Part shown: in pieces, positions 7,239 to 30,949 of the stretch
Position numbering within the stretch: the stretch's first letter is position 1
Layout: each line of letters begins with the position of its first letter
From: Calditrichales bacterium MX18-03
GTDB taxonomy: Bacteria; Bacillota; Clostridia; Lutisporales; Lutisporaceae
Length of the DNA: 64,000 nucleotides
Direction: 5' to 3'
Assembly (NCBI GenBank): GCA_021083345.1
Contig: JAJGRE010000001.1
Span: forward strand, 558,001 to 622,000
The notes under the pieces: generated by a model
What the model was told of the DNA's origin: nothing
Databases searched by the model: none
Seen by the model: the letters and a program-made list of their open reading frames with translations, nothing else
Program-made: the position numbers and the translations under genes

Positions 7239-7264
7239 TTTGCTTCCTTCTTTCCACACAACTA

Positions 7265-8287: not shown

Positions 8288-8292
8288 CCTCG

Positions 8293-9108: not shown

Positions 9109-9165
9109 GATTTCACCTGCTTTTTTGTCCGGAGAGGGCTTGCAGCCCTCTCCGGACGGGTTCTC

Positions 9166-10896: not shown

Positions 10897-10909
10897 ACTA
10901 TTTCCCCCT

Positions 10910-11407
10910 CTATTCTATAATACTAGTCAAACAGTTTGCCTCATCCTCAAGCAAAAGCTTGTCGCAGTCCAGAAGCAGCTTGACTTCGTTGCCCACCTTG
11001 CCTATGCCTTTTATGTACCGGTTGCCGACTTTGTTGAGCTCCGGCGGCGGCACTATCTCGCTGTCAGCGATGGAAATCACTTCAGAAACACTGTCAACAA
11101 TCAGTCCGATGGAAAGATCATCAATGTCGATGACAATCACACAAGTCCTGTCATTATAGTCTCTGAAAGGTTTCTTAAAACGCAGCCTGACATCCATCAG
11201 CGGGATTATTTTGCCTCTCAGGTTCATGATTCCCTTGATATAGTCGGGAAGCTCCGGTACCTCCGTGATGGGCTGTAATCCAACAATCTCTGTAACATGC
11301 TTGATTTCAATGCCGTACAGCTCATTTCCCAAAGAGAAGGTAAGATATTTGCCTTTCTGTGTATCCTCTTCCTGATCGTAGATATCCTGAACCAACTTGT
11401 CAGCCAT
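10910..11407 (-). CDS. cheW: Chemotaxis coupling protein CheW (operon A)
   Basis: 165 residues forming a CheW domain from about residue 15: [16 protein letters not shown], then [21 protein letters not shown] and a conserved [19 protein letters not shown]. CheW bridges MCP and CheA in the receptor array. The start at 11407 is chosen because GGAGGAG sits eight bases upstream; an ATG six codons earlier overlaps that site. It is 24 bases downstream of cheA and followed by the MCP gene. A second, distant cheW lies in operon B. Confidence 0.95.
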
Positions 11408-11431
11408 GTACCCATCTCCTCCCATTTTCTG

Positions 11432-13504: not shown

Positions 13505-13529
13505 CCTAACCCCTCCTTTCTTTTGCAGA

Positions 13530-13892
13530 TTAAACCGATAGTACTTTCCTTAATGTTTGAACCACCTGCTCTTCCTTAAATGGCTTTACGATGAATGACT
13601 TTGCCCCGTTCATGACCGCCTCCCTCACCATGACCTCCTGCCCCATTGCTGAGACCATGATGACTTTTGCTTTAGTGTCATAGGCCATAATGGCTTTAAG
13701 TGCCTCCGTACCCGACATTTCCGGCATTGTAATGTCCATTGTCACGATATCGGGCTGACACTGTTTGTACATTGCTACTCCAACTGCACCGTTCTCCGCC
13801 TCGCCGACTACCTCAAAGCCGTTCCGTTCCAACATCAGTCGAATGGTAGCCCTCATAAAAGTCGCATCATCCACAATCAATACCTTACCCAT
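13530..13892 (-). CDS. cheY: CheY-like receiver protein
   Basis: 120 residues, a single receiver domain: VDD at 7-9, phospho-acceptor D53 in VTMDITMPEMSG, Ser in VIMVSAM and Lys in IVKPF. The reading frame extends upstream into the tetR gene, but the real start is ATG 13892, preceded by AAGGAGAGG. It lies 17 bases after tetR and 25 bases before cheA, so it is likely the direct phosphate acceptor of that CheA. The stretch between tetR and this gene contains only the ribosome binding site. Confidence 0.94.
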   Translation of the reverse strand: MGKVLIVDDATFMRATIRLMLERNGFEVVGEAENGAVGVAMYKQCQPDIVTMDITMPEMSGTEALKAIMAYDTKAKVIMVSAMGQEVMVREAVMNGAKSFIVKPFKEEQVVQTLRKVLSV

Positions 13893-13909
13893 AGGGAATC
13901 CTCTCCTTT

Positions 13910-14497
13910 CTACTCCGGAATAAATGCATCCAATGTCATTATTAAAGTCGACAATGTATAGTCCTTCAAAGAAAAACCGAAGCCGTTCAGCCTCCAATTC
14001 AGGCAGATGGTATTGCAAAGACCCAAAATGATGTTGGCCAGCTTGTCGCTATGGATCTCACGTCCATTTCCATAATATGCCTTGGCTTCCTCCGCATAAT
14101 TCTCAAAAAGCTTCAGACGGGTAGCAAAGACATGCTTGATCTTATCAGCAAACTGGGGGTCGCAGGCAAGCACGTCATAGGCTTGTGTAATGGCAGTAAT
14201 GGGCGGATAGTTCTCATACAACTCCACATATGCCTTTACGATATACAGAATGGCCTCTTTGGGGCTCAGGCTCTTATGCCTTACTGAAGCTTCGATGTCC
14301 GCATCGTATTGCGAATAATGATCCAGAACGGCCATGATCAGCTCTGCCTTTGACTTGAAATGCTTGAAAATGGTTGCCTCCGAAATCCCCACCCTCTGAG
14401 CGATTTCCCGGGTGGACATACCCTGAAGTCCTAGTTCGTTTATTACTTCGATGGTTGTTAAAATGATACTGTCACGTCTGTGAATCAAATTTTCCAT
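13910..14497 (-). CDS. TetR/AcrR family transcriptional regulator heading the che operon
   Basis: 195 residues. The N-terminal helix-turn-helix is typical: RRDSIILTTIEVINELG, then MSTREIAQRVGISEATIFKHFKSKAELI at about 27-54. The C-terminal ligand-binding half is not assignable to a known subgroup. It is the first gene of operon A, 17 bases before cheY, with GGAGGT ahead of ATG 14497. An imperfect palindrome between the -10 and the gene suggests autorepression of the whole chemosensory operon by an unknown effector. A TetR regulator as the lead gene of a che operon is unusual. Confidence 0.92.
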   Translation of the reverse strand: MENLIHRRDSIILTTIEVINELGLQGMSTREIAQRVGISEATIFKHFKSKAELIMAVLDHYSQYDADIEASVRHKSLSPKEAILYIVKAYVELYENYPPITAITQAYDVLACDPQFADKIKHVFATRLKLFENYAEEAKAYYGNGREIHSDKLANIILGLCNTICLNWRLNGFGFSLKDYTLSTLIMTLDAFIPE

Positions 14498-14687: not shown

Positions 14688-17159
14688 CTATTTAAGCCAT
14701 TTTTCGATCTTCAGGTTCAATTCAAATATATCAATGGGCTTTGAAACATAATCATCCATGCCGGCATCCAGACATTTTTCCCGGTCTCCGCTCAGGGCAT
14801 AGGCTGTCATCGCAATGACCGGCGTATGGGTTCCGCTTGCTTTTTCCTTCAACCGGATCGCAGCTGTTGCAGAATAGCCATCCATATAGGGCATGTTGAT
14901 ATCCATCAGGATCAGATCGCACTTTTCTTTAAAGTATTTATCCATCGCAGCTTTTCCGTTTTCTGCCAAGATTACCTGCAGCCCCATCTTCTTAAGCACG
15001 ATGCTGACCAGATTCCTGGAAATCTCGTCATCCTCCACAAGCAATACCGATTTTCTCTCCATGCTTTTGGGAAGCAGCTTCTCAACGACACTGTTGCTTT
15101 GATCAGATAAAACACTCATTTCTTTAGGAAGCCCAAAGACACCAGTGAAAAAAAACTTGCTCCCGATGCCTTCTGTGCTTTCCACGCTGATTTCTCCATC
15201 CATCATTTCTACCAGCTTTTTAGAGATGGCCAGACCCAGTCCGGTCCCGCCAAATTGTCTGGTGAAGGAATCGTCCACCTGGCTGAACCGTTTGAAAAGC
15301 ATGTCCAGCTTATCCGGTGAGATCCCTATTCCCGTATCGGATATGATGAACCGCAGTTCCACGCTGGCACTGCGCTGCTTTACCATCTCGATTTGTATCG
15401 TTACCCCGCCGTACAATGTGAATTTGACCCCGTTGCCCACCAGATTGGACAGCACCTGCCTAAGCCTTACGGCATCCCCTAAGAGGAACTGCGGTATCCG
15501 TTCATCCACGTTCAGATTGATAAACAAGCCATTCTGCTTCGCTGCAACCTCAAAAAGCTCAATCACTTCATGAGCCGTCTCGCGGATATTGAAGGGCGCT
15601 TTTTCCAGATCGATTTTACCGGCTTCAATCTTCGAGTAATCCAGAATATCGTTCAGCACCCTTAGAAGGGACCTGGTGGAGGATTTTACCGTCTCCAGGT
15701 ATTCCCTTTGCTTCTCTTCCAGCTTGGTCATCAGCGTCAGGTCCGTCATGCCGATGATCCCGTTCATGGGGGTCCGGATCTCATGGCTCATATTAGCAAG
15801 AAAACTACTTTTTGCAGCATTTGCAGCTTCCGCAGTTTTCTTGGCTTTTCTCAGCTCTTCCTCGTTCTTGATCCTTTCAGCTATCTCTTCCTCAAGGGTG
15901 GCATTAGCATCCTCCAGCATGACGTTGGTTTTATAAAGCTCATCCGTCCGTTCCAGTATCTTGCTCTCTAGTTCGCTGTTCAGTTTGCTGAGCTCATCTT
16001 CGACTTTCTGGCGTTCTGCGATTTCCTCTTCCAGGACGGCATTCATTTCTTCAAGCCGCATGGTCCTTTCCACCACTTTATTCTCCAGCTCTGCGTTCAG
16101 ACTCTGTATTTCATTTTCCCTTTCCCTGACACAGTTTTTCATGATATCGAAATGCTCCGACAAAGCCTCAAATTCTTTGAGGCCTCTGTATTCGGCATAA
16201 GTGCCGTAATCCCCCTCTGAAATACGCCTGGTTCTTTCCAGCAGGCTTTTTAAGGCTTTCATGATGCCTTCAACATTCACAAAGTAAAGGATCGTCGAAA
16301 TAGCAAGCATCAGGACCAAGCCCCCGAGAATCATATACCTTAGCCTGTTGACACTGGCTAAAAGACTGTCTTCATGAATCGTGATGACGGAATACCAGCC
16401 GGTTGATTCGATCAAGGAAGGATAGATAATGAACGTCTGATTGTTTTCACTATACCGGTAAGGCTGTTTCAGGCGGATGCTTTCGGCCACGGCATCAAAA
16501 CGGCTGAAAAGCCGCCTTTGGTTTACCAAGTCCCTGTCCTGGTCCTGAATATAGATGCCTTTCTCATCGAGGATGGAAATATGCCCTCCCGCTTCCACAG
16601 GGATGCTCTCAATGATTTCCGTCAGCTTTGACAGGTTCAAATAGCCCACCAGTGTCATATCTTCGGCCTTGATGGAGATGGTAACGGTAGGCACATTTGT
16701 CTGCTGGGAAATGAACACCCTTGACCAGGTAGGCTTCCCTGCGGCATCGGCTTTCTTATAGAATTCCTCATACAGCATGCTTGCGCCGGCCAGGCCTTTG
16801 TCATAAGGTGCCATGTTCTTAATGGTGCCGGCGCTGTCAATAACCTGAATACTGTCGAAATATGGACGGATACGAATGATGCTGTTGAGATACAGGTCAA
16901 TTTCGTTTTCTGGAATGAACCCTTCTTTTGAAAGTCCGGTTTCAACTTCCTTCATTACATTGACAGGTCCTTGAATAAATGCCTCTACCTGATTGCTGAT
17001 ATGCATTGCGATGATCTTGTTGCTGTATTCAATGTCTTCCTTAATGTTCCTGCTGAATAGCGACTGTGTCACATACCCAAAGATCAATACCGGCATAATG
17101 AAGATCAGTATGATGCCGTAAAGCATGGTTTTTTTAAGGCTAACGCTTCTTTTCATCAT
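14688..17159 (-). CDS. Membrane hybrid histidine kinase (Cache sensor, HAMP, HisKA, HATPase, receiver)
   Basis: 823 residues. A membrane helix at about 13-33 and a second at about 275-297 enclose an extracellular sensor of the double-Cache type. Then come HAMP, a long coiled coil (about 345-450, rich in EEEIAER repeats), HisKA with [17 protein letters not shown], HATPase with NLVGNGVKF, and a receiver with [13 protein letters not shown] and a final Lys in VSKPI. It ends without an HPt. ATG 17159 overlaps the stop of the upstream binding-protein gene as TAATG, so the two are translationally coupled. A binding lipoprotein upstream could present its ligand to this sensor; that pairing is inferred from coupling only. 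Confidence 0.92.
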
Positions 17160-18292
17160 TATTCTACCTTTCTCAGTTCACCGTTGACCAGTCTGAAGAT
17201 CATGTATTGCCGGGTGTTATCTCCAAAGGCGTCAATTTGATAGTCTCCCTGCAGACCCTCGAAGTCCTTGATTTTCAAGATATTCTGCTTGATGGTGGCC
17301 GGCTTCAGGTCTGGTCCCATTTTCATGGCTTTGAACAAAGCCTGCGCTGCTTCATAGGAAAACATGGCGGAAAAGGTGGGGTTTTCACCGTATTTATTGA
17401 AGTACTTTTCTCTGAAGCCGGCAAAAGCAGGGGATGGATCATTGAGATCAATGGCTCCCACGATCAGCATGCCGTCTACAGCAGTACCACCCTTTCTGGG
17501 TAGGTCTGCCGTATTCGACCAAAGGGGTGCATAAATCTGAATGGTTGATCCCATTTTTCTTATCTGCTGAGCTATTTTTGCATTATTGGCTGAATCTGCG
17601 ATGATCAGCACCGCGTCAGCCTTTGATGTCACGATGCTTTCAGCCAGATGTGAAAAGTCAGCTGCGGTATCCTTCACAAAGGTTTCTGTCAGTATGATTT
17701 GTCCATGTCTGAGCTCCAGCTCATGCTTGAAGTTCTCATAAAGCACTTCGCAGAACCCCTTATTTCCCATATCATAAACAACTGCAAGCCTGTAATGCTT
17801 GTTTTTACACGCTTCTATTGCCAATATGTCTGCCTGTGCCTTTGTGGTGGCGATAAAGCGGATGAAGTTGTCATCCTTTCCGGACAAGGCATCGGCACTG
17901 ATGGTGGGTGACAAAAACAGGATATCTTCGCTTTTTAAGGCATCCATAGCGCTCACAATCATTCCGCTTGTGTAGTGGCCTATTACCACCGGTATGCTTT
18001 CGTCAATGAATTCATTATCAATTTTCAGTGCTGTCTCACTGTCGTTCTTATCATCCTTTACTACTAACTCCACTTTTCTCCCATTCAAACCGCCGTTTGC
18101 ATTGAATTCCTCAACCGCCAGTTCAACCCCTCTGCGCCCGGACACGGATAGATCGGAATTTACACCGGTCATGGTACCGGCTGCACCGATCCGAATGGGC
18201 TCCTTTTCAATCCGGCATGCCGATAAACCGGTGAGCAGCGCAAAAAGGATCATACAAAACAAAGCTGCTCCAACGTGACTTGATTTCATCAT
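17159..18292 (-). CDS. Periplasmic-binding-type lipoprotein, branched-chain amino acid (LivJ) family
   Basis: 377 residues. The N terminus is a lipoprotein signal ending in the lipobox LSAC at about 23-26. The mature part is a type I periplasmic binding fold: [37 protein letters not shown], and later [14 protein letters not shown] and [16 protein letters not shown]. Members of this family bind amino acids, amides or related small molecules. No ABC permease genes accompany it. Instead it lies between a REC-GGDEF-HD-GYP gene (abutting) and a hybrid kinase (overlapping by one base), which suggests a sensory rather than a transport role. Confidence 0.9.
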
Positions 18293-19717
18293 TTACTGCT
18301 CATCCCTTTCGCTCAGCATTTTCAAAAAAGCTGCTGCAATTTGGGGATCAAACCGTTTGCCCGCCTGGCTCTCTATGAATTCTACAGCCTCGGACCGGGA
18401 TACCGGCCTCTGGTCAAAGCTTCCGTGCAGCATGGCATCATAGGCATCCAATACCGCTATGATCCTCGCATTCAAGGGAATACTGTCGCCGGAAAGACCT
18501 TGAGGGTAGCCGCCGCCGGACCACTGCTCATGATGACTCAGGATATCGTTGGCAATATGTGCCAGATCCGGTGATGCCCCGGCTATCCTGTACCCTATTT
18601 CGCAGTGCTTTTCCATGTTCCGCCGTTCCTCAGGTGAAAGGTCTCCGCTTTTTGTCAGCAGTTCATTTGGAATACCGGTAATCCCAATATCATGGAGCAG
18701 TGAAAGCATCCTGAGGTTGTCCTTCTGATCGGCAGACAGCCCCAGCATCGTCCCCAACCCTTCTGAATACTCGATCAGGCGGTCACTGTGGGACTCAAAG
18801 GCTCCGTTCAGCAACGATTCCCTAAGGGATGCAATGATGGAGTTCCGGACATTTTTGCTTTCCATCAGCTTGTTGTTGTACATCTTGTCCTCTGCCGCTC
18901 TGTAGACAGCCTTTAAGTCCTGTCCGGCAAGCTCCTTCACTGCGTAACCCATCGCAATGCTCGGCTTAATGGGATCTTCTTTTCCTTTGGCGCACTTCTC
19001 CCTGATTCGGTTGATGAGCTTCTCTGCGTCCTCGGCCTTCGTTCTGGGCAAAACAATGAGAAACTCGTCCCCACCCATGCGGGCGATCAACTCGCCTTTG
19101 CGGCATTCACTCCGGATGATGCCTGCTATTTTTGTCAGCAGCCGGTCTCCCGCATGGTGGCCGAATGCATCGTTTGTAAGCTTCAACCCGTTTACATCAC
19201 CAAATATGAGGGAAATTGGCAGGTTTCTTTCGGTATCGATTCGCCGCATCTCTTCTTCACAAAACCTTCTGTTGTAGAAGCCCGTGAGTTTGTCATGGTA
19301 GTTCAGGTATATGATCTCTTCTTTCCTCTTCATCAGCTCCAAGGCATTTCTGACTTTGCAGGGCAGCGATATCTTCATGGCTTCTTCGCTCAGGGGCTTT
19401 GGGAAATAGTCATAAGCCCCCAGGCTTAACGCGCGCTCCACTGCCTGCCCGTCATCAATACCCGTGCAGACGATAACCGGAATATCCATTGCAGCAGGGT
19501 GCTCCTTTATCTCTCTCAAGACCTGAAAACCGTTTTTGACCGGCATAATGATGTCCAGAATGCAGACCTGTATATTATGCTGCATGATTTTTTCCGTAAT
19601 ATCCAGGCCGTTCTCAGCCTCATACAGCATGACATTATCCAGCTTCTTTTCCAATATCTGGCGGATGATTTTCCTTTCAATGGGAGAATCGTCAACGATC
19701 ATTATGTTTCCGTTCAT
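18293..19717 (-). CDS. Receiver-GGDEF-HD-GYP bifunctional c-di-GMP enzyme
   Basis: 474 residues. Receiver (about 1-120) with phospho-acceptor in CILDIIMPVKNG; GGDEF (about 135-295) with intact RMGGDEFLIVL; HD-GYP (about 310-470) with LLHDIGITGIP and SHHEQWSGGGYP. The diguanylate cyclase active site is intact. The position of the inhibitory RxxD site reads RKGE, so product inhibition may be weak. In the HD motif the usual HDIGK lysine is replaced (HDIGI), while the metal-binding H and D remain. The protein could make and break c-di-GMP according to phosphorylation. AAGGAGAG precedes ATG 19717 and overlaps the end of the upstream hybrid kinase, its likely phosphodonor. Confidence 0.92.
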   Translation of the reverse strand: MNGNIMIVDDSPIERKIIRQILEKKLDNVMLYEAENGLDITEKIMQHNIQVCILDIIMPVKNGFQVLREIKEHPAAMDIPVIVCTGIDDGQAVERALSLGAYDYFPKPLSEEAMKISLPCKVRNALELMKRKEEIIYLNYHDKLTGFYNRRFCEEEMRRIDTERNLPISLIFGDVNGLKLTNDAFGHHAGDRLLTKIAGIIRSECRKGELIARMGGDEFLIVLPRTKAEDAEKLINRIREKCAKGKEDPIKPSIAMGYAVKELAGQDLKAVYRAAEDKMYNNKLMESKNVRNSIIASLRESLLNGAFESHSDRLIEYSEGLGTMLGLSADQKDNLRMLSLLHDIGITGIPNELLTKSGDLSPEERRNMEKHCEIGYRIAGASPDLAHIANDILSHHEQWSGGGYPQGLSGDSIPLNARIIAVLDAYDAMLHGSFDQRPVSRSEAVEFIESQAGKRFDPQIAAAFLKMLSERDEQ

Positions 19718-19720
19718 CTG

Positions 19721-22700
19721 CTAGCTCTCCTTCTCGTTTTCTTTGGACAGTGCATTCAGCGCTTTTCCGATCTCATCCAACAATCCGGCCAGCATTTCCA
19801 TATTTGCATTTTTCACTGCATCTTCAGCCTGCAAAGCATGCTTTGCAATGTTATTGGCCCTGACACTTCCGGCCGCGCCCTTGAAATGATGCAGCACCGA
19901 AGCTGCTTCCTTCAGGTTGCCTCTTGCAACCTGCTCCCTCACTGCTTCCAGCAGCCTCTCCCCTTGATCTCGGAAGTCGTTCAGGAGCTCTTCACAGGTT
20001 TCCTTATCCAGCCCTGACTCATTCATGAGGTCAAGCAGCACATTTGCATAATAACGGCTATCCGGCATTCTGCTACTGTCCTCAGCAACGAGCTTCCCAT
20101 ACTTTTTCAGCAGCCCCATCACCTGACCCAGATTGACGGGTTTGCCCACATATTCATCCATTCCCGCTTCCAGGCACTTATCTTCATCGCCTTTCATGGC
20201 ATAAGCCGTCATCGCTACGATAACCGTATGCTTCCTTCCCTTTTCCGCTTCCCGGATCCTTCTTGTTGCTTCATACCCGTCCAGAGCCGGCATCTGGCAA
20301 TCCATGAAAACAATATCATAATCTTTGCTTTCGCAAGCGCTGACGGCTTCCTCGCCGTTTACCGCCACATCGCAGCTTAGCCCTTTCATTTTCAGCAGCT
20401 TGATAAAAAGCTTACGACTGACTTCATTATCCTCAACCAACAGGATTTTCAGCTTGTCATTAAACTTGGCTTCTATGGCAGCGTGCTTGGTTGCAAAAAC
20501 AGGCTTCTCGCCATTGTCACCGTGCTTCCCTGCCAAAGCCATTGCCGTGCAGTCAAGCAGCTCATTCCTTCTGTAGGGTTTTGAGATGTACCCGGCAAAG
20601 CCCTTTGCTTGTGCCTCTTTTGCCATCGAGTTTGTCGTTACAGACGTGATCAGGACAAAGGGTATGCGGGCTTCGGGATACCGTCCCATAATAGATGTTG
20701 CCAATTCAAAGCCGGTCATATCCGGCAGCTGGAAATCAACCAATACCATGTCGTAGGACCTTATCCTCTGAGCTGCCATTTTAGTCAATGCTGCCACTGC
20801 ATCTTCAGCCTCGCTTACCAGGCAGCCCAATTCCTCCAGATAGACTCTTGCCACATGCCGGTTTGTCTCATGATCATCCACGATCAGTATCCGCTTGCCT
20901 TTCAGGATGGAATAATCCGGGGGGAAGGGTATGTCAAGCTCCTGTGCTTTGTTAAGCCTGAGCAATACTGTAAAGGTTGTTCCCTTTCCTTTTTCGCTTT
21001 CGATGCCGATGGAACCGCCCATCATTTCGACCAGGCGTTTGGATATGGCAAGCCCCAGGCCGGTACCGCCGTATTTTCGCGTTGAAGACGCGTCTGCTTG
21101 ACTAAAGGGTATAAAAAGCTTGCCCAATTCCGGCTCAGCCATGCCGATGCCTGTGTCCTTTACTGTCAAGGCGATCTCGGCATCCTCATCCGTTTCGTTA
21201 TTCAAGGTGACTTCGATATACACCTCGCCCTTGTCTGTGAATTTTACAGCATTGCTGACCAGATTGGTTAGAATCTGCCTTGTTTTTGTAGGATCACCGA
21301 TTAGGAAATTCGGAATGGCTGAGCTGATCAGCATATTCAGGCTGATTCCATTTTCTTTTGCCTTTGCATCAAAAAGGATGACCGTTGCTTCAATCATGGC
21401 GCGCAGATCGAAGGGGATATGCTCCAGCTCTATTCGGCCTGCTTCTATCCTGGAGATGTCCATGATGTCGTTGATGACAGAAAGCAGTGAGTCTGTCGAG
21501 GTCTTGATGGTTTGGACGAATTCATGCTGGTCGCTGGTCAGCTCGGTATCCTCCAAAAGCTGCAGAAAACCGACAATGCCGTTCATAGGCGTTCTGATTT
21601 CATGGCTGGTATTGGCCAGGAACTGGCTCTTTGCGATATTGGCTGCTTCCGCCTGCTCCTTTGCCTTAAGCAGCTCACTATTGGTGCTCTCCAGCTCCAT
21701 TGTTCTTTTCCTAACCATCCCCTCCAGGTTATTGATCAGTGAATTCAACTCCCCGGCCATTTGATTGAATGCCCTGGCCAGCATGCCGATTTCATCATTT
21801 CTAAAGATCCTGGCCCGCTGCGACAAATCGCCTTTTGAGAATTTTTCTGTTGTATCGATCAAAGCATATACCGGCTTCAATATGACCTCGGTACTTTTCA
21901 GATAAATCAATATGGACAGCAGGATCGAAAAAAGCGATAAAAACACGGATGTCCCGATGCTTCTTTTGATCTCGGCAGTAAAAAGAGATTCCGGTATAGC
22001 CGTCATAATCAACCAGTTCAGGCCTTCATTTCTGTATTCATTGATTGTGACATGAATCGTTTCTCCGCCTTCACGAATGACATGCCTGCTGACAGGTGTG
22101 TCTTTATGCTGCTTAAATGCGTCAAGGATTACTTTGTTTTCAATTTCTTCAACGGTCTTTCTCCTGATTTTTCCGTCGGTCAGCTTTTCAAAATTGGGCA
22201 CTTCCAGTGAATTGGCTATCAGCGCACCGTTTTCATGCTCGACGATAAAAGCCACCCCATTCTTATCGTGTATCATCTCTTTCAAGTACTTATTGAGGCT
22301 TGATAAGGTCATATGTGTACCCAAAACCCCTTGGAGAGCACCGTCTCTGCTATATATCGGGTATGCGGCTGACAGCGCCAGATCATCCTTCACAAAATGT
22401 TTGTAAACAGGTGAAAAGGTGGGCTTTCCCATTCCTTTGGCAGCCTTATACCAATCCCGTATCCGGGGATCGAACTTTCCGAAGTCTTTCAAAAAGCTTC
22501 CCTCGGTCAAATCCGCGTTTACGGAAAAATAATGGGAGTTCCCCTTGGTATCGGCATCGCTTCTATATAGCTCAATTTCATTTTGGCTGTTTCTGCGGGC
22601 GCCATAATAGCTGCCGCTTTCAGTCCCATAGCTGAAGCTGTAAATCTCTCCGCTGTTGGATTTGATGACGCCGGCAAAAAAAGCTTCCCGTTTTTTCTTA

Positions 22701-22987
22701 TTGCCGATATCCACAACTCCGTTCCGTATGAGATGGTGGTTTATTTCATTATTGAACAGCGCAGCACCAACCAGCGCTTCTATTTCATCCAGTATTCTTA
22801 AGTTGGCCTCTTCCTCTATTTTGTTAATGGTATTATCCACAGACACTTTCCAGTTTGAAAACACAATAAATAAAATGATTCCGATCGTAATAACCATCAG
22901 TAAAATAAAGGCAATGCTCATCAGCAGCCTTAATGATTTTCTATGCTTGTCCCCTTTCATTCCATCCGGTTTCATTTCTTCAGCCAC
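19721..22987 (-). CDS. Membrane hybrid histidine kinase with two receivers and HPt
   Basis: 1088 residues. Membrane helices at about 22-46 and 340-360 flank an extracellular Cache-type sensor. HAMP follows (about 365-420), then HisKA with [17 protein letters not shown] (about 470), HATPase with [10 protein letters not shown] and KYGGTGLGL, receiver 1 with [11 protein letters not shown], receiver 2 with [11 protein letters not shown], and C-terminal HPt with [11 protein letters not shown] (about 1015). The HPt could pass phosphate to the receiver of the next gene. The start is uncertain: GTG 22987 is the first in-frame start and its upstream sequence (GGATGTGATGTT) is a poor ribosome binding site; an internal ATG at 22975 is no better. 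Confidence 0.9.
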
Positions 22988-23017
22988 AACATCACATCCA
23001 TTTCAAGCCTTCACTGC

Positions 23018-23533
23018 CTAATCAATGCGTTTTACGAAAAAACGGCAGATCCGTTCCCCGTTTTCCCAGGAATCCTGTTCTTTCGCTTTAAAAGGCTTTC
23101 CCGTATATTCCTCAAAAATACCTGCTATGAGACCTATTGCATAATCGTACAAGGGCTCTCCCGCCGCAGGGATTCCGGCGCTATCCAAGTCTTCAGTCAG
23201 CGTCAGGACAAAGGAATGTTCCTTTACGTCCATCATTTCCACCTGCAGGATACCGATTTTAAGCTCTGAAAGCAGTATCTGCAGCTGCTTAATGAAAATG
23301 CTGAAGGATGCTGTTTTGTCAAGCATGTTCTTGCAGAACTCTCTTCCTGCAAGTAAGCCCGCTTTTAAAAATAGCTCTTTTGCCTTATCCTGGCCGCATT
23401 CCAGTTCAAGCACATCCTTCATCGTATATTGCAGCAGCCTGTATACTGATACATAGGTCATACTCCCCAGCTGAGGCCTTCCGCTAACGATGTCTCCGAT
23501 GGCCTCCCATTGGAAGCTGTATCTCTTGTTCAT
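23018..23533 (-). CDS. V4R (4-vinyl reductase-like) small-molecule-binding domain protein
   Basis: 171 residues, apparently a single V4R domain. Features seen: GRPQLGSMTYVSVYRLL near the start, LLAGREFCKNML in the middle, and a C-terminal LYDYAIGLIAGIFEEYTG followed by ENGERICRFFV. The family often has paired cysteines near the C terminus; here the first is replaced by Ser (EQDS) and the second kept (RIC). V4R domains are thought to bind small ligands and act as sensors. ATG 23533 is chosen because AGGGTGGG lies six bases upstream. The position between cheW and a hybrid kinase suggests a cytoplasmic input module. The ligand is unknown. Confidence 0.75.
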   Translation of the reverse strand: MNKRYSFQWEAIGDIVSGRPQLGSMTYVSVYRLLQYTMKDVLELECGQDKAKELFLKAGLLAGREFCKNMLDKTASFSIFIKQLQILLSELKIGILQVEMMDVKEHSFVLTLTEDLDSAGIPAAGEPLYDYAIGLIAGIFEEYTGKPFKAKEQDSWENGERICRFFVKRID

Positions 23534-23574
23534 ACTCAACCCACCCTTCTTTGAAGCTTATTCCGTCGCTCCGG

Positions 23575-24003
23575 CTAAACCGGGAGCATCATCAACTTTT
23601 CCAGATCCAGGAAAATCAAAAGCCTGTCCGAAAGCTTACCGACCCCTTGGATGTATTTCCTGTCAATGCCGCCTACCATCTCCGGAATGCTTTCATAGCT
23701 CTCAACCCCCAGAGAAACCATTTCCGACGCATCATCTACAGCAAATCCGATGCCTCTCTTTTCAGATTCGATGACGATAATCCTGGTATTATCGCTTTTT
23801 TCAGTCTCCTCCATGCCGAATTTCTCCTTCAGATTGACGATGGGAACGATTTTGCCCCGCATATGGATGATGCCCTCCACATAGTCCGGCGCATCGGGTA
23901 TCTTGACTATATCCCAGCAGGGAACGATTTCCTTGACTTTCATGATGTCAATGCCAAAGCTCTGGTCATTCAATTTAAAAATAACCCAATGCATCTCTAT
24001 CAT
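23575..24003 (-). CDS. cheW: CheW-like coupling protein (operon B)
   Basis: 142 residues covering one CheW domain: HWVIFKLNDQSFGIDIMKV, EIVPCWDIVKIPDAPDYV, GIIHMRGKIVPIVNLKEKF. It starts at ATG 24003, overlapping the stop codon of the Spo0E-like gene as ATGA, a sign of translational coupling. Operon B has no MCP or CheA of its own, so this protein must use receptors and kinase encoded elsewhere, such as those of operon A 10 kb away or the MCP at 32449. Confidence 0.93.
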   Translation of the reverse strand: MIEMHWVIFKLNDQSFGIDIMKVKEIVPCWDIVKIPDAPDYVEGIIHMRGKIVPIVNLKEKFGMEETEKSDNTRIIVIESEKRGIGFAVDDASEMVSLGVESYESIPEMVGGIDRKYIQGVGKLSDRLLIFLDLEKLMMLPV

Positions 24004-24176
24004 TCTCCCTTCGCCTCACAAATCCTCTGCATGGCATAATAACGGTTCAACGCCTCATCCAGAAGCATGCTCTTATGTACTACACAGGGATCCGTTAAAT
24101 CCGCGCATTTGTCAATTGCCTCTGAAAGCTCACTCCTTAAACGCTCCACCCATTTCAGCATTCCATCCTCGTTCAT
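24000..24176 (-). CDS. Spo0E-like aspartyl-phosphate phosphatase (58 residues)
   Basis: A short gene read directly from the sequence: ATG 24176 to TGA 24000-24002, 58 codons. The protein begins MNEDGMLKWVERLRSEL and contains HKSMLLDEALNRYY at about 34-47, which matches the Spo0E signature S-x-x-LD-x-x-(I/L)-x-x-Y within a two-helix protein of the usual size. Spo0E family proteins dephosphorylate Spo0A~P and delay sporulation. A strong GGAGGGAG stands before the start. It is the first gene of operon B and overlaps cheW by four bases (ATGA). This places a possible brake on sporulation in a chemosensory operon. The target is not proven. Confidence 0.75.
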   Translation of the reverse strand: MNEDGMLKWVERLRSELSEAIDKCADLTDPCVVHKSMLLDEALNRYYAMQRICEAKGE

Positions 24177-24277: not shown

Positions 24278-24309
24278 ATTATATCTGTCCCAAATGACGG
24301 AATTATGAC
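24278..24309 (-). promoter_or_regulatory. Promoter of operon B with 11-bp-spaced direct repeats (SARP-type architecture)
   Basis: On the minus strand TTTGTCATAATT is followed by a second GTCA. The two GTCA cores occupy 24306-24309 and 24295-24298, exactly 11 bases apart. The -10 TATAAT (24278-24283) begins 12 bases after the last repeat base, leaving 11 bases between. There is no -35 match, which suggests an activator-dependent promoter. The same layout is found at 29728-29759. Confidence 0.55.
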
Positions 24310-24342
24310 AAATTACGCGCCGCCCTATGAAATAAGTATGAA

Positions 24343-24375
24343 ATAAGCCTGTAAATTCAAGGATTACAGGCTTAT
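24343..24375 (-). terminator. Terminator after the SARP-like response regulator gene
   Basis: A perfect 12-base-pair stem (ATAAGCCTGTAA, 24343-24354, with 24364-24375) and a nine-base loop lies past the stop of the gene at 24446. On the minus strand the tail is TTATTTCATACTTATTT, only moderately T-rich. Confidence 0.55.
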
Positions 24376-24445
24376 ATTTATTAACAAGTAGCAATTGTTA
24401 AAATAAAACATTTTAGGATTCAACTGTATTTAGCGCCCGAAGGAT

Positions 24446-25573
24446 TTAACTAAGGCCCTTGCACAACTCTGTGTAGAGGCTTGTCACTGTTTTTCCTGGA
24501 GCAACGCCCAACTCCCTTTGTATGGTCTTGGAATACCGCTCATAATGTTTGATCAAAGAAAGCTTATCCCGCTTGGCGGCATAAACCTGCATATAAAGGC
24601 AATTGATTTCTTCATCCAGCTCATTCTTGACCGCTATTTTCTGAAGGATCTGCAGTGCTTCTGAGGAAGCGCCGCTGGCAAGCAGATATGCACCCAGTTT
24701 TTTGCCCAGGCTGCGGAGCAGGTTTGCCAGCCTTTCCTGTTCCGGCAAGGACCAATGATAATCCCTGTCCCCGAATAGCTCGCCGGCATACAGCTGTTCC
24801 GCTTCTAGTGCAGCATTGAGGGTTGAAAGGCTGATGTCGTCAAAGTGACTGATGCGATGCTCAAAATCATCATAGTCAACATAAATTTCATTCATCTCAA
24901 CCCTATAACTTTCATTAGCGGTGACAATGGCTGCTTTCATGCCGTAAGGCTCCAGTGCCTTTCTCAGCTTATATACCGTCGTGTTCAGATATGTTTCGGC
25001 ATTGTGGGGGGACATCCCCCGAAAAACCGTTTCCATCACATTCCATTTAGAGACGAATTTACCTTTGTACATCAGAAGAAAAGCAAACAGTTCCGCGCTT
25101 TTTGAAGAGCTCAGCCTGACAGTTTTACCATCACGGTCCCGGATGTCAAAGCCCCCCAGGCAGTAAACAAAAAGCCGCTTTGTTTTTTCCGCACTGACTG
25201 CCGTCTGTAAGGCATGCCTTCCGTACTGAACCCGCCGAGCCATCCGCTCCAGCCTTTCCTGGTAAACAGGCTTTACAATATAATCAATGGCATTGACATC
25301 GAAAGCCTCCAGTGCGAATTCCTTATGGGAGGTCAAGAAGACAATATCAACATTCGGCATGGCCTGTCTGACCTTCCTGGCAAATTCAAGGCCATTTTCT
25401 TCAGGCATATTGATATCGATGATAACCATATCCGGCTGCTGCTCCTCCAGTGCGGCATATGCGTCCCTGGTACTCTGGAAAGCACCTGCCAGCTCCAGTT
25501 CCGGTATTTTTTCCATCATCTTTTCCAGAAGCAGCAGCATGGATTTTTCATCGTCAATTGCAATTACTTTCAT
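24446..25573 (-). CDS. Response regulator with SARP-like output (receiver, winged helix, BTAD)
   Basis: 375 residues from ATG 25573. Receiver (about 1-115) with DDEKS, phospho-acceptor in VIIDINMPEENG and K in VKPV. A winged-helix DNA-binding domain (about 135-225) contains RLSSSKSAELFAFLL and PHNAETYLNTTVYKLRKAL. The C-terminal helical BTAD domain contains LEAEQLYAGELFGDRDYHW and ends with RELGVAP, as in SARP-like regulators. An ATG at 25591 is in frame, but the paralog at 29819 starts at the equivalent of 25573, and both have GGTGATGG just ahead. It is the last gene of the kinase operon. It and its paralog are candidate activators of the 11-bp-repeat promoters. Confidence 0.88.
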   Translation of the reverse strand: MKVIAIDDEKSMLLLLEKMMEKIPELELAGAFQSTRDAYAALEEQQPDMVIIDINMPEENGLEFARKVRQAMPNVDIVFLTSHKEFALEAFDVNAIDYIVKPVYQERLERMARRVQYGRHALQTAVSAEKTKRLFVYCLGGFDIRDRDGKTVRLSSSKSAELFAFLLMYKGKFVSKWNVMETVFRGMSPHNAETYLNTTVYKLRKALEPYGMKAAIVTANESYRVEMNEIYVDYDDFEHRISHFDDISLSTLNAALEAEQLYAGELFGDRDYHWSLPEQERLANLLRSLGKKLGAYLLASGASSEALQILQKIAVKNELDEEINCLYMQVYAAKRDKLSLIKHYERYSKTIQRELGVAPGKTVTSLYTELCKGLS

Positions 25574-25592
25574 ACCATCACCCAAATCCATT

Positions 25593-27347
25593 CTAATTTA
25601 GTACCCACAAAGGAACGGAAACATAAAAAGTACTTCCCTCGCCGGGGTTGCTTTCCACCCATATGTCACCGCCGTTGCGGTGAACCAATTCCTTGCAAAT
25701 GAAGAGGCCTAGCCCAATGCCTTTTTCGCCCTCAGTGCCTGCTGTCGGCTGCACCTGCACGTCCTGAAAAAGCAGCTGGACTCTTTCCGGCCGGATGCCG
25801 ATTCCATTGTCCTGAACTGCAACGATTGCCATTTTGCCCTTCGCTTCAGCCCTCACACGGACGATGCTGTTTTTTTCGCTGTATTTGATTCCGTTGGAAA
25901 GCAGGTTCCATATGACCAACTCCAGCATCTCCTTGTCGGCCATGATGGTCAGCCTTTCGGGAACGGCAGCTTGAATGCTGATACTCTTTTCCTCAGCCCG
26001 CTGCTGCACCCGTCCCACGGCCAGATTCATGACCTCTGAAAGCTGCCATGCCTTCGGAACAATGAGTGTTCCGCCTGTCTTGCTCCTGAAGCACTCCAAA
26101 AGGCTTTCCACCACAGAGAAGATGTGCCTGACTTGTTCCTTGATCTCCACTGTCATTTCCCGGGTATCAACCTCTGCGAAAGATAGTTCTTCTTCCAGCA
26201 GTTCGGAAAGATTAACCAGCATCGCAACCGGGTCCCTGATACGGTCGTCAATGACAGCCAGAAGCTTGTCCTTCAAGGCATTCAGCGCTGCCAGCTGTGT
26301 AGCGGTGGACCTGATCCTCTCTTGGTATTTTTTCATTTCGGTGATATCGCTAAAGGTCAGCATTCTCCCCAGCCATACTTCTTTATCATGGATCAATACC
26401 ATCCTGATATTAAAATACTTCTGAGCATCGTTCACCAGGATGTATTGCAGGCAGCTGCTGCTTTCATTTCGGTTCATGAGCGCCAAAAGCGACGGATAAA
26501 CTTGAAACATTTCAGTGGTACGGCATTGTTCCGGCATGACGGAACTTAAGCCGGGAAAGATCCTGCAGGCCGCCGTATTGAAATTGATGATGCAGTTTTC
26601 GTTATCAAGCAGGATAACCCCATCATCCATTGATTCAAACATCCTTTCCAGCGCTGCCTGCTTTAACCTTAGCAGTTGGTACCGGAAAACGGCATAAATG
26701 TAAATGATGCCGGACAGCATGAAACCAGTTGGGGTAAAGTCAAACCCGTTCCTGAACACATCAAAAAGGTAAACCAGATTCAAGACCCATGGAATGCAGG
26801 TGCCAAGTATCATCACGATCAATTGCTTCCGCATATGGTCTGCGGCGCTTAACAATTTGGAATACAACAGAATCAGCCCGGTGATTATATTGGCATACGA
26901 ATAGACGATATGGACCCAGTACCAGGGTCCTTTGGTCAGGACCGCCACATCCATTAGTGTGGCTTTGGTCAGATACATACCGCTATAGTACAGATGGTGA
27001 AATTCATTTGTGTAGTGCAGAATAAACGTTGCAGCAGGCACGATAAAGAGCAGGCCGTATAGGCGTTTATTGAGATACGTTTCCAGGTTCAGATAATTAA
27101 TAATCATGATCAGCCACAACGGGGTGATAAATGGAATCCCCAGGTACTGCACTTTGAGCCAGAACTTTATCCACTCGATATCATCCTGTTTGATTTCAAA
27201 TGCGTAGCCGAAGGAATAGAAGGAAACAGCGAGCATGGCAAAAGACAACCACAGCGCTGGCTTCAGCCTGCGTTTTTTCCATGACAGATAAGACAGATAA
27301 AGGGTTATGGTTGTTGAACCAACCATCAGATGCGTTAAGACATTCAT
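25593..27347 (-). CDS. 7TM-type sensor histidine kinase with a degenerate phospho-acceptor site
   Basis: 584 residues. About seven hydrophobic helices fill residues 1-225, in the manner of the N-terminal 7TM domain of histidine kinases. A PAS follows (about 230-345), then a HisKA-like helix pair and a HATPase with VIWNLLSNGIKYS, VQDNGIGIRPE and GIGLGLFICKEL. The H box reads KLLAVIDDRIRDPVAM, where the sister kinase has KLFTIVTHDVRHPFTT: the phospho-acceptor His is Asp. The codons were checked in the DNA. The protein may bind ATP but cannot autophosphorylate at the usual place, so it may work as a partner or phosphatase. AGGAGGG precedes ATG 27347. It lies between the PAS kinase and the SARP-like regulator. 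Confidence 0.87.
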   Translation of the reverse strand: MNVLTHLMVGSTTITLYLSYLSWKKRRLKPALWLSFAMLAVSFYSFGYAFEIKQDDIEWIKFWLKVQYLGIPFITPLWLIMIINYLNLETYLNKRLYGLLFIVPAATFILHYTNEFHHLYYSGMYLTKATLMDVAVLTKGPWYWVHIVYSYANIITGLILLYSKLLSAADHMRKQLIVMILGTCIPWVLNLVYLFDVFRNGFDFTPTGFMLSGIIYIYAVFRYQLLRLKQAALERMFESMDDGVILLDNENCIINFNTAACRIFPGLSSVMPEQCRTTEMFQVYPSLLALMNRNESSSCLQYILVNDAQKYFNIRMVLIHDKEVWLGRMLTFSDITEMKKYQERIRSTATQLAALNALKDKLLAVIDDRIRDPVAMLVNLSELLEEELSFAEVDTREMTVEIKEQVRHIFSVVESLLECFRSKTGGTLIVPKAWQLSEVMNLAVGRVQQRAEEKSISIQAAVPERLTIMADKEMLELVIWNLLSNGIKYSEKNSIVRVRAEAKGKMAIVAVQDNGIGIRPERVQLLFQDVQVQPTAGTEGEKGIGLGLFICKELVHRNGGDIWVESNPGEGSTFYVSVPLWVLN

Positions 27348-27402
27348 ACGCTTCCCTCCTATAAGCCGCTTATCGCTGCAGCTATCGGCTCAAAGTCTCC
27401 GG

Positions 27403-29694
27403 TTATGCCTGTACCGGAAGTGAAAAATAAAAGCTGCTGCCTTTCCCCGGAATGCTTTCTGCCCAGATCTCTCCACCGTTCTGGCACACCAGTTCCTTGC
27501 AGATCTTAAGCCCCATTCCTCTGCCTTTTTCGCCTTCCGTTCCCAAGGTGGTATAAAAGTCAGTATTATCGAAGAGCTCTTTTGCCTTTGCCGTGCATAT
27601 TCCCACACCGGTGTCGCTGACGGCAGTAACGATTTTATTATCTGTACGGCATGCACTTATGGAGATCAATCCGCCTTTATGGGTAAACTTAACCGCATTG
27701 GAAAGAAGGTTTCTCAGAACGATCTCCAGCATCTCCCGGTCTGCAAGAACCATAATGTCCCTGCTTATCTCGACGGTCATGCGCAAGCCTTTGACAGCAC
27801 CGTTGATCCTGCTGTCCTGGACTGCTTCCTGTACGGCGTCGTACAGCGCCAGCGGCTCGGGATTATGCCGCAACCCCTTCATTTGGCTTCTGAACCATTC
27901 CAGCAGGTTTTCCACCATCATATAGGTTCTTTTAATATGCTCGGCAACTTCATCGATCAACTCCCTGCTGTCACTGTTGCAATATACCTTTTCTTCATCC
28001 AGGATCTCCATCAGCGTTAGCAGTGTTGTAAAAGGATGCCTTACGTCGTGGGTTACAATCGTAAAGAGCTTGTCCTTCATTGTATTTAACTCTTCCAGCC
28101 TGGAAATGACGGCTATCTTCTCAATTGTTTTCTGCAGCGCCATGTTTTTTTCTTTTTCTGCCTCCAGAAGCTGTTCATGCTGTTTTTTGATTTGGTTTTC
28201 CTTTTCTACCATCTCGGTTATATCGCGGCTGCTTATAACTGCATACTCAATGATGCCCTGGGCGTTCAATATGGGCGTTCCGCTGGTATTAATGAATTTT
28301 TCTTCGCCTCCATAAACGAGTTTGATACGTTCTCCATAGACCTGCTCGCCTCTCAGCACTTTCTTCGCCGGCAGGTTGTCCTGCGGGATCCGGTTTCCTT
28401 CCATATCGTAGTAAAGGATTACAGAAGAAGAATCACCTGCATAATTTGCCTTCACTTCCGGCATGAACATTTTGGCGGCTTCGTTCATAAAAATATATCT
28501 ACCATCGCTGCTTAGAACATATAAGGCATCCGGCAGGCTGTTCAATATCGAATAAAGCTCTTTCCATTTTCTTTCGATTTCCTGACTTTGCTTTATATAC
28601 GCCGTCATGTCATGAAAGCAGGAAACACCGATGAGGAATTTGCCGTACTCATCATATACCGGTGTACCATTTACATCGAAATGTATTTCCTTGCCGTCCG
28701 ATTCCATGATGATCCGATAGTTGTTCAATGTTTCTCCATTCATTACCTTACAATCAGGCAAGGACTCTATTGCAAGCTCATTTCTTTCTGCGTCATAAAA
28801 CCTGGCACCGTCAAACCAGTCTCCAGGCTTCTTGATTTCAATGGACGGCGTCAACCCCCTAGCCTTCTTGTTGACAATATAACGGCCATTCCTGTCAATA
28901 ATGCTGCAGGCATCGGACATGTTTTCAATAACCGCTTCCAGCTGCTTTTTTTGGAGCACCAGTTCCTCTGCCTGTTTTGCCAAGCGCTCTTTGTTCAGCT
29001 CTCTTTCTGTTACATCCGTCAGCATGGAAACGATATATTTCACTTGCCCGTACTCAGAAATGGGCGTTAGAACATTATCGTAATATTTGCCTTGCCAGGC
29101 CCTGACACTGCCCTTCATGCTATTTAGATAAAGGGACGCATTATTTTCAATCATCCTCAGCCAGAGAGTTTCTGCTCTGCTGCCTTCAAAATCAGATACT
29201 ATATCCTTCAACAACCGTCCTATTGCCAATTCTTTCTTATTAAACTTTTCATCGAAGCTGTCCAGATAAGTTTGGTTAGCTTTAATCAGAACCATTTCGG
29301 GCAATTTGTAAATTCCTATACCCACCTGGTTCTCTTCAAGGAGCTTTACCATTACCGGTAACCCGCTCCTGATTGTGCGGCTTGGCCGGTCCAAAAACTC
29401 CAGAACCGTCATACCTCCCGTTATTAACTTTTTTTCAAGTACTTTTACTTCCCTGTACAACAGCGACTTAGTGAATATATAGCCTTCAAGTTTTTGGGAT
29501 TCACAGTTGAGATCTGGCTCAAGCTTGCTTCGCAGCAGTGTTTGCAATACATATGACATTTCTTTGTTTAATAGGTCCTCCGCCTGATACTCCGTTAAGC
29601 TGAGAAAAGTCTGGTTGACATGAACAATGCTTCCATTATTGATCTTGATTAAGGGTGTTTCCATGATCGACTTGATTTTGTACTTCAATCTCAC
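27403..29694 (-). CDS. Soluble multi-PAS sensor histidine kinase
   Basis: 763 residues with no membrane helix. Four PAS-like units are visible over about residues 5-520 (PAC ends such as VSMLTDVTERELNKERL and ISSRDITEMVEKENQI). HisKA follows with the intact H box FTIVTHDVRHPFTTL, and HATPase with VLRNLLSNAVKF, VSDTGVGI and GRGMGLKICKEL. There is no receiver, so it should phosphorylate a separate regulator, most simply the SARP-like one two genes downstream. The start is GTG 29694 with GAGG six bases upstream. It is the first gene of a three-gene operon that has the second 11-bp-repeat promoter upstream. Its ATPase domain is clearly related to that of the neighbouring 7TM kinase. Confidence 0.9.
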   Translation of the reverse strand: MRLKYKIKSIMETPLIKINNGSIVHVNQTFLSLTEYQAEDLLNKEMSYVLQTLLRSKLEPDLNCESQKLEGYIFTKSLLYREVKVLEKKLITGGMTVLEFLDRPSRTIRSGLPVMVKLLEENQVGIGIYKLPEMVLIKANQTYLDSFDEKFNKKELAIGRLLKDIVSDFEGSRAETLWLRMIENNASLYLNSMKGSVRAWQGKYYDNVLTPISEYGQVKYIVSMLTDVTERELNKERLAKQAEELVLQKKQLEAVIENMSDACSIIDRNGRYIVNKKARGLTPSIEIKKPGDWFDGARFYDAERNELAIESLPDCKVMNGETLNNYRIIMESDGKEIHFDVNGTPVYDEYGKFLIGVSCFHDMTAYIKQSQEIERKWKELYSILNSLPDALYVLSSDGRYIFMNEAAKMFMPEVKANYAGDSSSVILYYDMEGNRIPQDNLPAKKVLRGEQVYGERIKLVYGGEEKFINTSGTPILNAQGIIEYAVISSRDITEMVEKENQIKKQHEQLLEAEKEKNMALQKTIEKIAVISRLEELNTMKDKLFTIVTHDVRHPFTTLLTLMEILDEEKVYCNSDSRELIDEVAEHIKRTYMMVENLLEWFRSQMKGLRHNPEPLALYDAVQEAVQDSRINGAVKGLRMTVEISRDIMVLADREMLEIVLRNLLSNAVKFTHKGGLISISACRTDNKIVTAVSDTGVGICTAKAKELFDNTDFYTTLGTEGEKGRGMGLKICKELVCQNGGEIWAESIPGKGSSFYFSLPVQA

Positions 29695-29727
29695 AGCCCC
29701 CCTCTATATGCTTGTCCTGCTACATAT

Positions 29728-29759
29728 ATTTTATCCCCTTTATCTGACTCAATTATGAC
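29728..29759 (-). promoter_or_regulatory. Promoter of the kinase operon with 11-bp-spaced direct repeats
   Basis: On the minus strand it reads TTTGTCATAATTGAGTCA, with GTCA cores at 29756-29759 and 29745-29748, 11 bases apart, and a -10 TAAAAT at 29728-29733, again with 11 bases between. The first 12 bases are identical to the promoter of operon B. No -35 is present. Confidence 0.55.
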
Positions 29760-29818
29760 AAACTTCGCCGTCAATCCTTCTTTAACCGGCTCGAATGAAA
29801 GGTTTCCGGCATTTCTTC

Positions 29819-30949
29819 CTAGCTTTCGTAGACGGATTTCTGCAGCATGTGATAGAACTCTGTTATCATGCTGTCCGGTGTTATGCCAAGCTCTCTCTGT
29901 AGGGTCTTGGTGTATAGCTCATACTGTTTGGCCAGCGATACAATGTCCCGTTGAGCTGCATAGGCATGCATCATCAGACAGTTGATGTCCCTGTCCAGTA
30001 TATTCTGCGCCAGGAGCTTTTTCAGGATATATACCGATTGAGTCAGCGCGCCGGTCTTAATCAAATAGCCGCAAATCGTTTTTCCAAAACGCTTGTACAG
30101 CAATGCCAATCGCTCGCGTTCAGGCAAGGACCAGCAATATCCCTTATCACCAAACAGCTCGCCGGCATAAAGGCTTTCTGTTATCATGGCCTCGCCCAGA
30201 TTGCTGCTGTCGATGACGGACAGATTTTTAATACGGTCCTCAAAATCCAGAAAATCAACGTAAAATGCCTTTGTATCTATGGAATACCCTTCATTGTGTG
30301 TGATGATAACCTCAGCAGCCCCCTGAGCTTCCAGTACCCTCCTTAATTTGTAAACCGTTGTGTTCAGATAGGCCTCCGCATTATGAGGCGGCATACCCCT
30401 GAAAACCTCTTCCATGATTCTCCATTTTGAAATAGAATGATGGTGATGCAACAAAAGAAATGACAACAGCTCTGCGCATTTGCTTGAATTCAGCTGTACC
30501 GGTTCGCCTGACCCATTTCTTAACTCCAAGCCTCCCATACCGTAGACAGAAAGCCTGCCTGAAGGCCTGCTGCTGTCCGGCTCCTTAAGCTCATGCCGCT
30601 GCATTGCCCGCCTGACTGTGCGTGTAAGCCTCTCCTGATCGATCGGCTTCATAATGTAGTCAAAAGCACACACATCATAAGCTTCCAGTGCATATTCCTT
30701 GTATGAAGTCAGAAATACAAGAGCCCCGGGGATACTGTCTGCAGCTATCCGCCTGGCAAATTCCAGACCGCTCTCCTCCGGCATCCTGATATCGACAAAA
30801 ATCAGGTCCACCGGGTTATCCTTCAAAAACCGAAAAGCATCTCCCGTATCCTGAAAGATGCCTGCAATCTCCACCTCTTGCAGCTTAGCCAGCATTTTTC
30901 TCATTATGAGCAGCATGGACTTCTCATCGTCCACTATGATTGCTTTCAT
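29819..30949 (-). CDS. Response regulator with SARP-like output, paralog
   Basis: 376 residues, collinear with the regulator at 24446: receiver with DDEKS, phospho-acceptor in IFVDIRMPEESG and K in MKPI; winged helix with QLNSSKCAELLSFLL and PHNAEAYLNTTVYKLRRVL; BTAD with ESLYAGELFGDKGYCW and RELGITP. The long shared stretches show an ancestral duplication. A TATAAT (30979-30984) lies upstream on the minus strand, without a good -35 and without the 11-bp GTCA pair. The gene stands upstream of the kinase operon but has its own promoter region. The partner kinase is likely one of the two downstream. Confidence 0.88.
   Translation of the reverse strand: MKAIIVDDEKSMLLIMRKMLAKLQEVEIAGIFQDTGDAFRFLKDNPVDLIFVDIRMPEESGLEFARRIAADSIPGALVFLTSYKEYALEAYDVCAFDYIMKPIDQERLTRTVRRAMQRHELKEPDSSRPSGRLSVYGMGGLELRNGSGEPVQLNSSKCAELLSFLLLHHHHSISKWRIMEEVFRGMPPHNAEAYLNTTVYKLRRVLEAQGAAEVIITHNEGYSIDTKAFYVDFLDFEDRIKNLSVIDSSNLGEAMITESLYAGELFGDKGYCWSLPERERLALLYKRFGKTICGYLIKTGALTQSVYILKKLLAQNILDRDINCLMMHAYAAQRDIVSLAKQYELYTKTLQRELGITPDSMITEFYHMLQKSVYES

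Follow-up and report, generated by a model that had tools for sequence, protein, structure and literature searches.

The closest described relatives of the system reported here are the SARP regulators. At the promoter bound by AfsR, the afs box consists of two 11-bp direct repeats centred at -29.5, on which a side-by-side AfsR dimer touches sigma region 4 and the beta flap (PMC10936776). Across SARP target promoters the repeats lie 11 or 22 bp apart, with the 3' repeat 8 bp from the -10 element, and small and large SARPs are defined with an N-terminal winged helix-turn-helix (wHTH) domain and no receiver in front of it (PMC10936776). Our analysis concerns a 64,000-nucleotide stretch of the Calditrichales bacterium MX18-03 genome (the window), in which two promoters, sites A and B, carry a comparable box next to genes for two response regulators, regulators 1 and 2, with a receiver (REC), an OmpR-type wHTH, and a BTAD domain. 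Sequence comparison makes it highly probable that sites A and B are sigma-A-type promoters that depend on an activator, at which these regulators would bind a box replacing the -35 element and would form an autoregulated two-component system.

When compared to AfsR of Streptomyces coelicolor, the locus shares an OmpR-type wHTH followed by BTAD as well as 11-bp repeats at about -40 to -19 in place of the -35 element, and it differs in the receiver placed in front (a two-component input), the AT-rich GTCA repeats, and the Bacillota hosts. Whereas SARPs activate antibiotic clusters in actinomycetes, the box of the present system is followed by genes for chemosensory proteins, kinases, Spo0E-like proteins, and surface proteins. 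The wHTH directly before BTAD (both over the cut-off in regulator 2) is the arrangement of the SARP family, while the N-terminal receivers of regulators 1 and 2 set them apart from the receiver-less SARP definition. The repeat spacing of 11 bp is that of SARP promoters, and GTCATT stops 9 bp short of the -10 instead of 8, a difference that depends on how the repeat border is defined. The domain order of regulators 1 and 2 is identical to that of the 'SAPR family' response regulators (REC-wHTH-BTAD) of COG3947, where they would presumably be filed; the open-access literature searched yielded neither a DNA box nor a regulon or mechanism for the COG3947-type group. EmbR of Mycobacterium tuberculosis, the top fold match (2ff4), shares the wHTH-BTAD core; it receives its input through an FHA domain and a Ser/Thr kinase and has no receiver.

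Architecture of sites A and B and the neighbouring regulators

The main elements are as follows.

24278..24312, minus strand: site A, TTTGTCATAATTCCGTCATTTGGGACAGATATAAT, a box of two 11-bp direct repeats plus -10, putative promoter of the spo0E-like/cheW/kinase operon
29728..29762, minus strand: site B, TTTGTCATAATTGAGTCAGATAAAGGGGATAAAAT, box plus -10, putative promoter of the kinase-kinase-regulator 1 operon
24446..25591, minus strand: regulator 1 (381 aa), receiver, OmpR-type wHTH, and BTAD by Pfam; AlphaFold2 model matching EmbR and AfsR
29819..30949, minus strand: regulator 2 (376 aa), receiver, OmpR-type wHTH, and BTAD, all three over the Pfam cut-off
24343..24376, minus strand: AAGCCTGTAA...TTTACAGGCTT, a hairpin resembling a terminator, seen in an RNA fold of the intergenic region that separates regulator 1 from site A

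The initial annotation had claimed that the two promoters share a 12-mer, an 11-bp GTCA spacing, and an N11 spacer to TATAAT or TAAAAT, and that they have no -35 element; each of these points proved exact on the minus strand. The 12-mer TTTGTCATAATT lies at 24301-24312 and 29751-29762, the two GTCA motifs start exactly 11 bases apart, and eleven further bases lead to the -10 (TATAAT or TAAAAT). Both sites have ATAATT as the hexamer 17 bp ahead of the -10 and hence no -35 element. Taking the -10 as -12 to -7 puts the half-sites at -38/-35 and -27/-24. In shuffled windows, TTTGTCATAATT was expected 0.02 times and GTCA-N7-GTCA-N11-TANAAT 0.00 times, against two occurrences found of each; further weak matches to the looser pattern GTCATAATTNNGTCA in the window stood at chance level (18 found, 18.9 expected). 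Site A lies 3' of regulator 1, pointing into the spo0E-like/cheW operon, and site B lies 3' of regulator 2, pointing into the operon composed of a PAS kinase, a 7TM kinase, and regulator 1.

Pfam likewise agreed with the receiver-winged helix-BTAD layout proposed earlier for the regulators at 24446 and 29819. In regulator 1, PF00072 and PF03704 were over the cut-off and PF00486 (Trans_reg_C) fell 0.3 bits under it; the receivers cover residues 9-117 and 4-112 in regulators 1 and 2, respectively, and the two proteins align with 52% identity. The receiver residues D14/E15, D59, T87, and K107 are invariant in 24 homologues, and the regulators thus combine the REC-wHTH-BTAD order with a phosphoacceptor Asp. 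NCBIfam returned just generic response-regulator matches under the cut-off, and the VIA re-alignment, occupied by receiver domains, was uninformative on the BTAD part. The AlphaFold2 model of regulator 1 (pLDDT 89.9) had EmbR (2ff4) and AfsR (8HVR/8K60 among the best) as top PDB matches, with about 250-260 columns aligned to AfsR at a TM score of 0.78 by target.

Rarity, linkage, and co-variation of the box

The source genome was scanned by pattern searches with 0-2 mismatches. The core TGTCATAATTNNGTCA, with 14 fixed bases, would be expected in about 0.03 copies by simple arithmetic, and three exact copies were found in the 4.69-Mb genome, namely sites A and B and a third, site C (C7:1498327), which had played no part in making the search pattern; the reversed control pattern gave 0 exact matches in the same genome.

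C7:1498310-1498343, minus strand: site C, the third GTCA box, whose -10 (TAAGGT) is weak; locus L073, 10342
C7:1492912-1494048: regulator 3, 45% identical to regulator 1

Site C heads an operon that encodes a sensory protein, a kinase, and, at its end, regulator 3, the sole other close paralog of regulators 1 and 2 in the genome (the next best has 28% identity), which suggests that regulators 1 and 2 may control regulator 3. All three exact core copies are linked to the three closest regulator paralogs and are not scattered at random across the genome, the outcome that the initial annotation had named as refuting its reading. A near-copy at C8:191473 (one mismatch) lacks a -10 at N11, and since arithmetic predicts about 1.5 matches of this kind, it was dismissed as chance.

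Of the 22 family genomes, two had the core, the source genome and G014, and the same two were the only ones with close regulator homologues (next best, 28% identity). In G014, which belongs to another genus, a regulator gene 56% identical is followed 93 bp on by TTTTGTCATAATTCCGTCAGATGATATTGGTAAAAT and then by Spo0E-like and CheW-like genes, named by eye from their likeness to the window proteins. The order regulator-terminator-box-spo0E-like-cheW-like is kept there while the surrounding DNA has changed, and among the listed open frames of this 6.3-kb contig no other DNA-binding protein was evident.

Regulator homologues turned up in Anaerocolumna, Paenibacillus, and Psychrobacillus when GTDB genomes were scanned. 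Searching the loci with TTGTCA-N7-GTCA-N10..12 plus a -10 returned 12 full-score boxes near the best regulator homologues (436 kb searched), against 0 in 983 kb of control loci; N11 was the best of the spacings 10-12 in every full-score box, and most of these boxes lay about 60-100 bp 3' of the regulator stop codon, on the regulator's strand. Box positions beyond the search pattern were also conserved (T at -1, T at 17-18, and TGTCGAAG upstream). In the Paenibacillus loci (L157-L186), TGTCGAAG stands just 5' of TTTGTCA, perhaps as a third, weaker half-site 10 bp upstream, and site B retains GCGAAG of this element.

In 150 Paenibacillaceae genomes, drawn independently of the GTDB homologue scan and with the regulator genes located separately from the boxes, 27 strict boxes were found, compared to 1 for the reversed control. 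Eighteen of the 27 lay less than 12 kb from a regulator gene, all 18 on the same strand, where a uniform spread would give 0.04. Two placements recur, one 66-98 bp downstream of the regulator and the other about 4.5 kb upstream; the latter fits the head of a kinase-regulator operon and matches how sites B and C are placed.

The box also varies with the recognition helix of the regulators. Those with the helix ...YLNTTVYQLRK(V/L)L carry the TTGTCAT...GTCATT box, while those with an RKSLEPL helix carry TCTTTCATTATTCTTTYAKT instead, often at the same place. In the 150 Paenibacillaceae genomes TCTTTCATTATTCTTTYAKT occurred 13 times, in 12 genomes (reversed control, 0), and every one of these 12 holds a regulator of the 220-280-bit group, which includes the RKSLEPL subclass and is present in just ~35 of the 150. 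The source genome itself has TTTTTTTCATTATTCTTTCATTGGTGTCGTATACAAT at C7:1492776-1492809 (minus strand), after regulator 3 (helix ...RKSLE) and before a methyl-accepting chemotaxis (MCP-like) gene, and this sequence matches the second-code box of the RKSLEPL-helix Paenibacillaceae regulators. A site that changes together with the recognition helix is what direct binding predicts.

We sketch, tentatively and at somewhat less than even confidence, a widespread Bacillota family of REC-wHTH-BTAD regulators, each with a target promoter immediately 3' of the gene that encodes it. Helix and box would have co-evolved into two codes or more (RKAL/RKVL/RKLL with TTGTCAT...GTCATT, and RKSLEPL with CTTTCATTATTCTTTYATT). 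In the source genome these could be joined in a cascade running from regulators 1 and 2 to site C, the regulator 3 operon, and the second-code box (TTTCATTATTCTTTCATT) before the methyl-accepting chemotaxis gene.

Proposed activation at the box and alternative readings

The rarity of the sites, their linkage to the regulators, and their co-variation with them belong to the genomes as observed; from these we infer binding, its dependence on phosphorylation, activation, and which regulator serves which site. In the proposed mechanism, the neighbouring kinases would phosphorylate regulator 1, regulator 2, or both, and phosphorylation-dependent dimerisation would place two regulator molecules head-to-tail on the two-half-site box TTTGTCATAATTnnGTCA, which takes the place of the -35 element. 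By analogy with AfsR on the afs box, a box at -41 to about -20 would set the regulators against sigma region 4 and the beta flap, giving class-II-type activation at sites A and B. Site B, driving the PAS kinase, the 7TM kinase, and regulator 1, would close a positive feedback loop, and site A would drive an output operon encoding the Spo0E-like protein, CheW, a V4R protein, and hybrid kinases.

The initial annotation had both promoters controlled by the two regulators, for which rarity, regulator linkage, and helix-box co-variation speak at the level of sequence. The feedback loop that it proposed for the kinase operon, which site B precedes and regulator 1 ends, has its counterpart in other genera, where the box recurs ~4.5 kb upstream of the regulator. 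Its wider claim of a two-component, SARP-type circuit outside actinomycetes gains support as well, except that the layout itself had already been catalogued (COG3947).

Sites A and B might alternatively be Pho boxes, that is, phosphate-regulated promoters with PhoB or PhoP on TGTCA repeats. The enterobacterial Pho box, with its TGTCA direct repeats and 11-bp period, replaces the -35 element about 10 bp before the -10. The PhoB half-site, TGTCA(T/C) (PMC3264566), has nearly the same sequence as our box, and the two 11-bp repeats of the Pho box (PMC3978041) have nearly the same geometry. PhoB, however, lacks BTAD, and regulators 1-3 scored 48-52 bits against the PhoB equivalog model (cut-off, 296). 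Checked at three PBP_like_2 (pst-type) loci, the pst-type promoters of the source genome carry TTAACAT-N4-TTAACAT repeats resembling those of Bacillus PhoP and no TGTCA/GTCA-N7-GTCA box; at L198 (C7 near 655254), the direct repeats read TTTACAT/TTAACAT and are spaced 11 bp apart, as in a PhoP box of the Bacillus type. The phosphate system thus uses another sequence. The GTCA box, moreover, is absent from the 20 family genomes without close BTAD-regulator homologues, occurs only beside BTAD regulators, and follows their recognition helix, and we rejected this very improbable explanation on the different repeat of the pst-type promoters. Still less credible is that the likeness of sites A and B reflects a recent, functionless duplication of a regulator gene with its downstream flank. 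Regulators 1 and 2 are indeed paralogs, each with a site 3', but they share only 52% identity, the sites cannot be aligned by eye outside the box and the -10, and the persistence of the same box in other genera and in Bacilli already contradicts a recent event.

Somewhat closer to our reading, though still unlikely, is that the regulators bind the box and repress, or modulate a promoter that fires without them. OmpR-type regulators are capable of either direction of control. The missing -35 element nevertheless argues for activation, and its absence at sites A and B, together with an invariant N11 to a good -10, is the layout of activator-dependent promoters such as afsS.

Several points weigh against activation by these regulators as the explanation of the box. 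Linkage cannot separate an activator from a repressor, and 9 of the 27 strict Paenibacillaceae boxes lie away from any close regulator gene; some of these nine are of another sequence type, TTGTCACCGGAATGTCATTTTGGGC, which another regulator might use and which has a relative in L181 ahead of an ABC transporter. A strict box is also missing from 4 of the 13 genomes with a close regulator; of these four, L230 carries, in the expected position, a box with one mismatch, and L237 carries a class-II-like sequence.

Operon contents, regulon, and other promoters

The genes that activation at sites A and B would reach are listed below.

27403..29694, minus strand: PAS-domain histidine kinase of 763 aa, encoded directly after site B
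25593..27347, minus strand: sensor histidine kinase (HisKA_7TM, PAS, HisKA, HATPase), separated from regulator 1 by 1 bp
24000..24176, minus strand: Spo0E-like protein (58 aa; PF09388, E=8.5e-9), first gene after site A
23575..24003, minus strand: CheW-like protein (PF01584), second gene after site A
14688..23539, minus strand: rest of the putative site A operon, with a V4R protein, a hybrid kinase (Cache-HisKA-2xREC-Hpt), a REC-GGDEF-HD-GYP protein, a periplasmic binding protein, and a Cache hybrid kinase

The stop codon of the spo0E-like gene overlaps the start of cheW, and the extent of the remaining operon was inferred from spacing (gaps of at most about 35 bp). A second chemosensory cluster, including a TetR-type gene and genes for CheY-like, CheA, CheW, MCP, and CheR proteins, occupies window positions 3387-14497, 190 bp beyond the site A operon.

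The predicted regulon in the source genome is small, composed of sites A, B, and C and the second-code site after regulator 3. In relatives, where target genes were judged by eye from N-terminal sequence with no family search, the Paenibacillus box (TTTGTCATTTTGCYGTCATT) stands 5' of genes that encode large surface or secreted proteins (some of them SLH-like), lipoproteins, and a SecA2-like protein, and elsewhere the box precedes a 7TM kinase gene (L169), a position equivalent to that of site B, a regulator (L167), and an HD-GYP-like gene in Psychrobacillus. The common output looks like sensing combined with the cell surface. In L170 (G049), a GTCA box stands about 300 bp 5' of a SecA2-like gene.

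The domain layout (COG3947) and SARP-type promoters in Streptomyces are already known, while in the open-access literature we found no description of the box, of its placement beside the regulator's own gene, of the regulon, or of the two codes that pair helix and box. A box recognisable from sequence would make the regulon readable in many genomes, covering chemosensory and kinase operons and, in Bacilli, surface, SecA2-like, and cyclic di-GMP genes. It would also be a case, outside actinomycetes, of SARP-style -35 replacement governed by a two-component system. The two classes of regulator and box could offer a ready system for studying how OmpR-type recognition helices select half-sites.

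A different promoter family, TTGTCACCRGAATGTCATTWTGGGC...TATAAT, was seen in L181 (G048), at G135:C3:1717187, and at G170:C4:95243. It is probably served by another OmpR-type regulator, and in L181 it is situated 5' of an ABC transporter operon.

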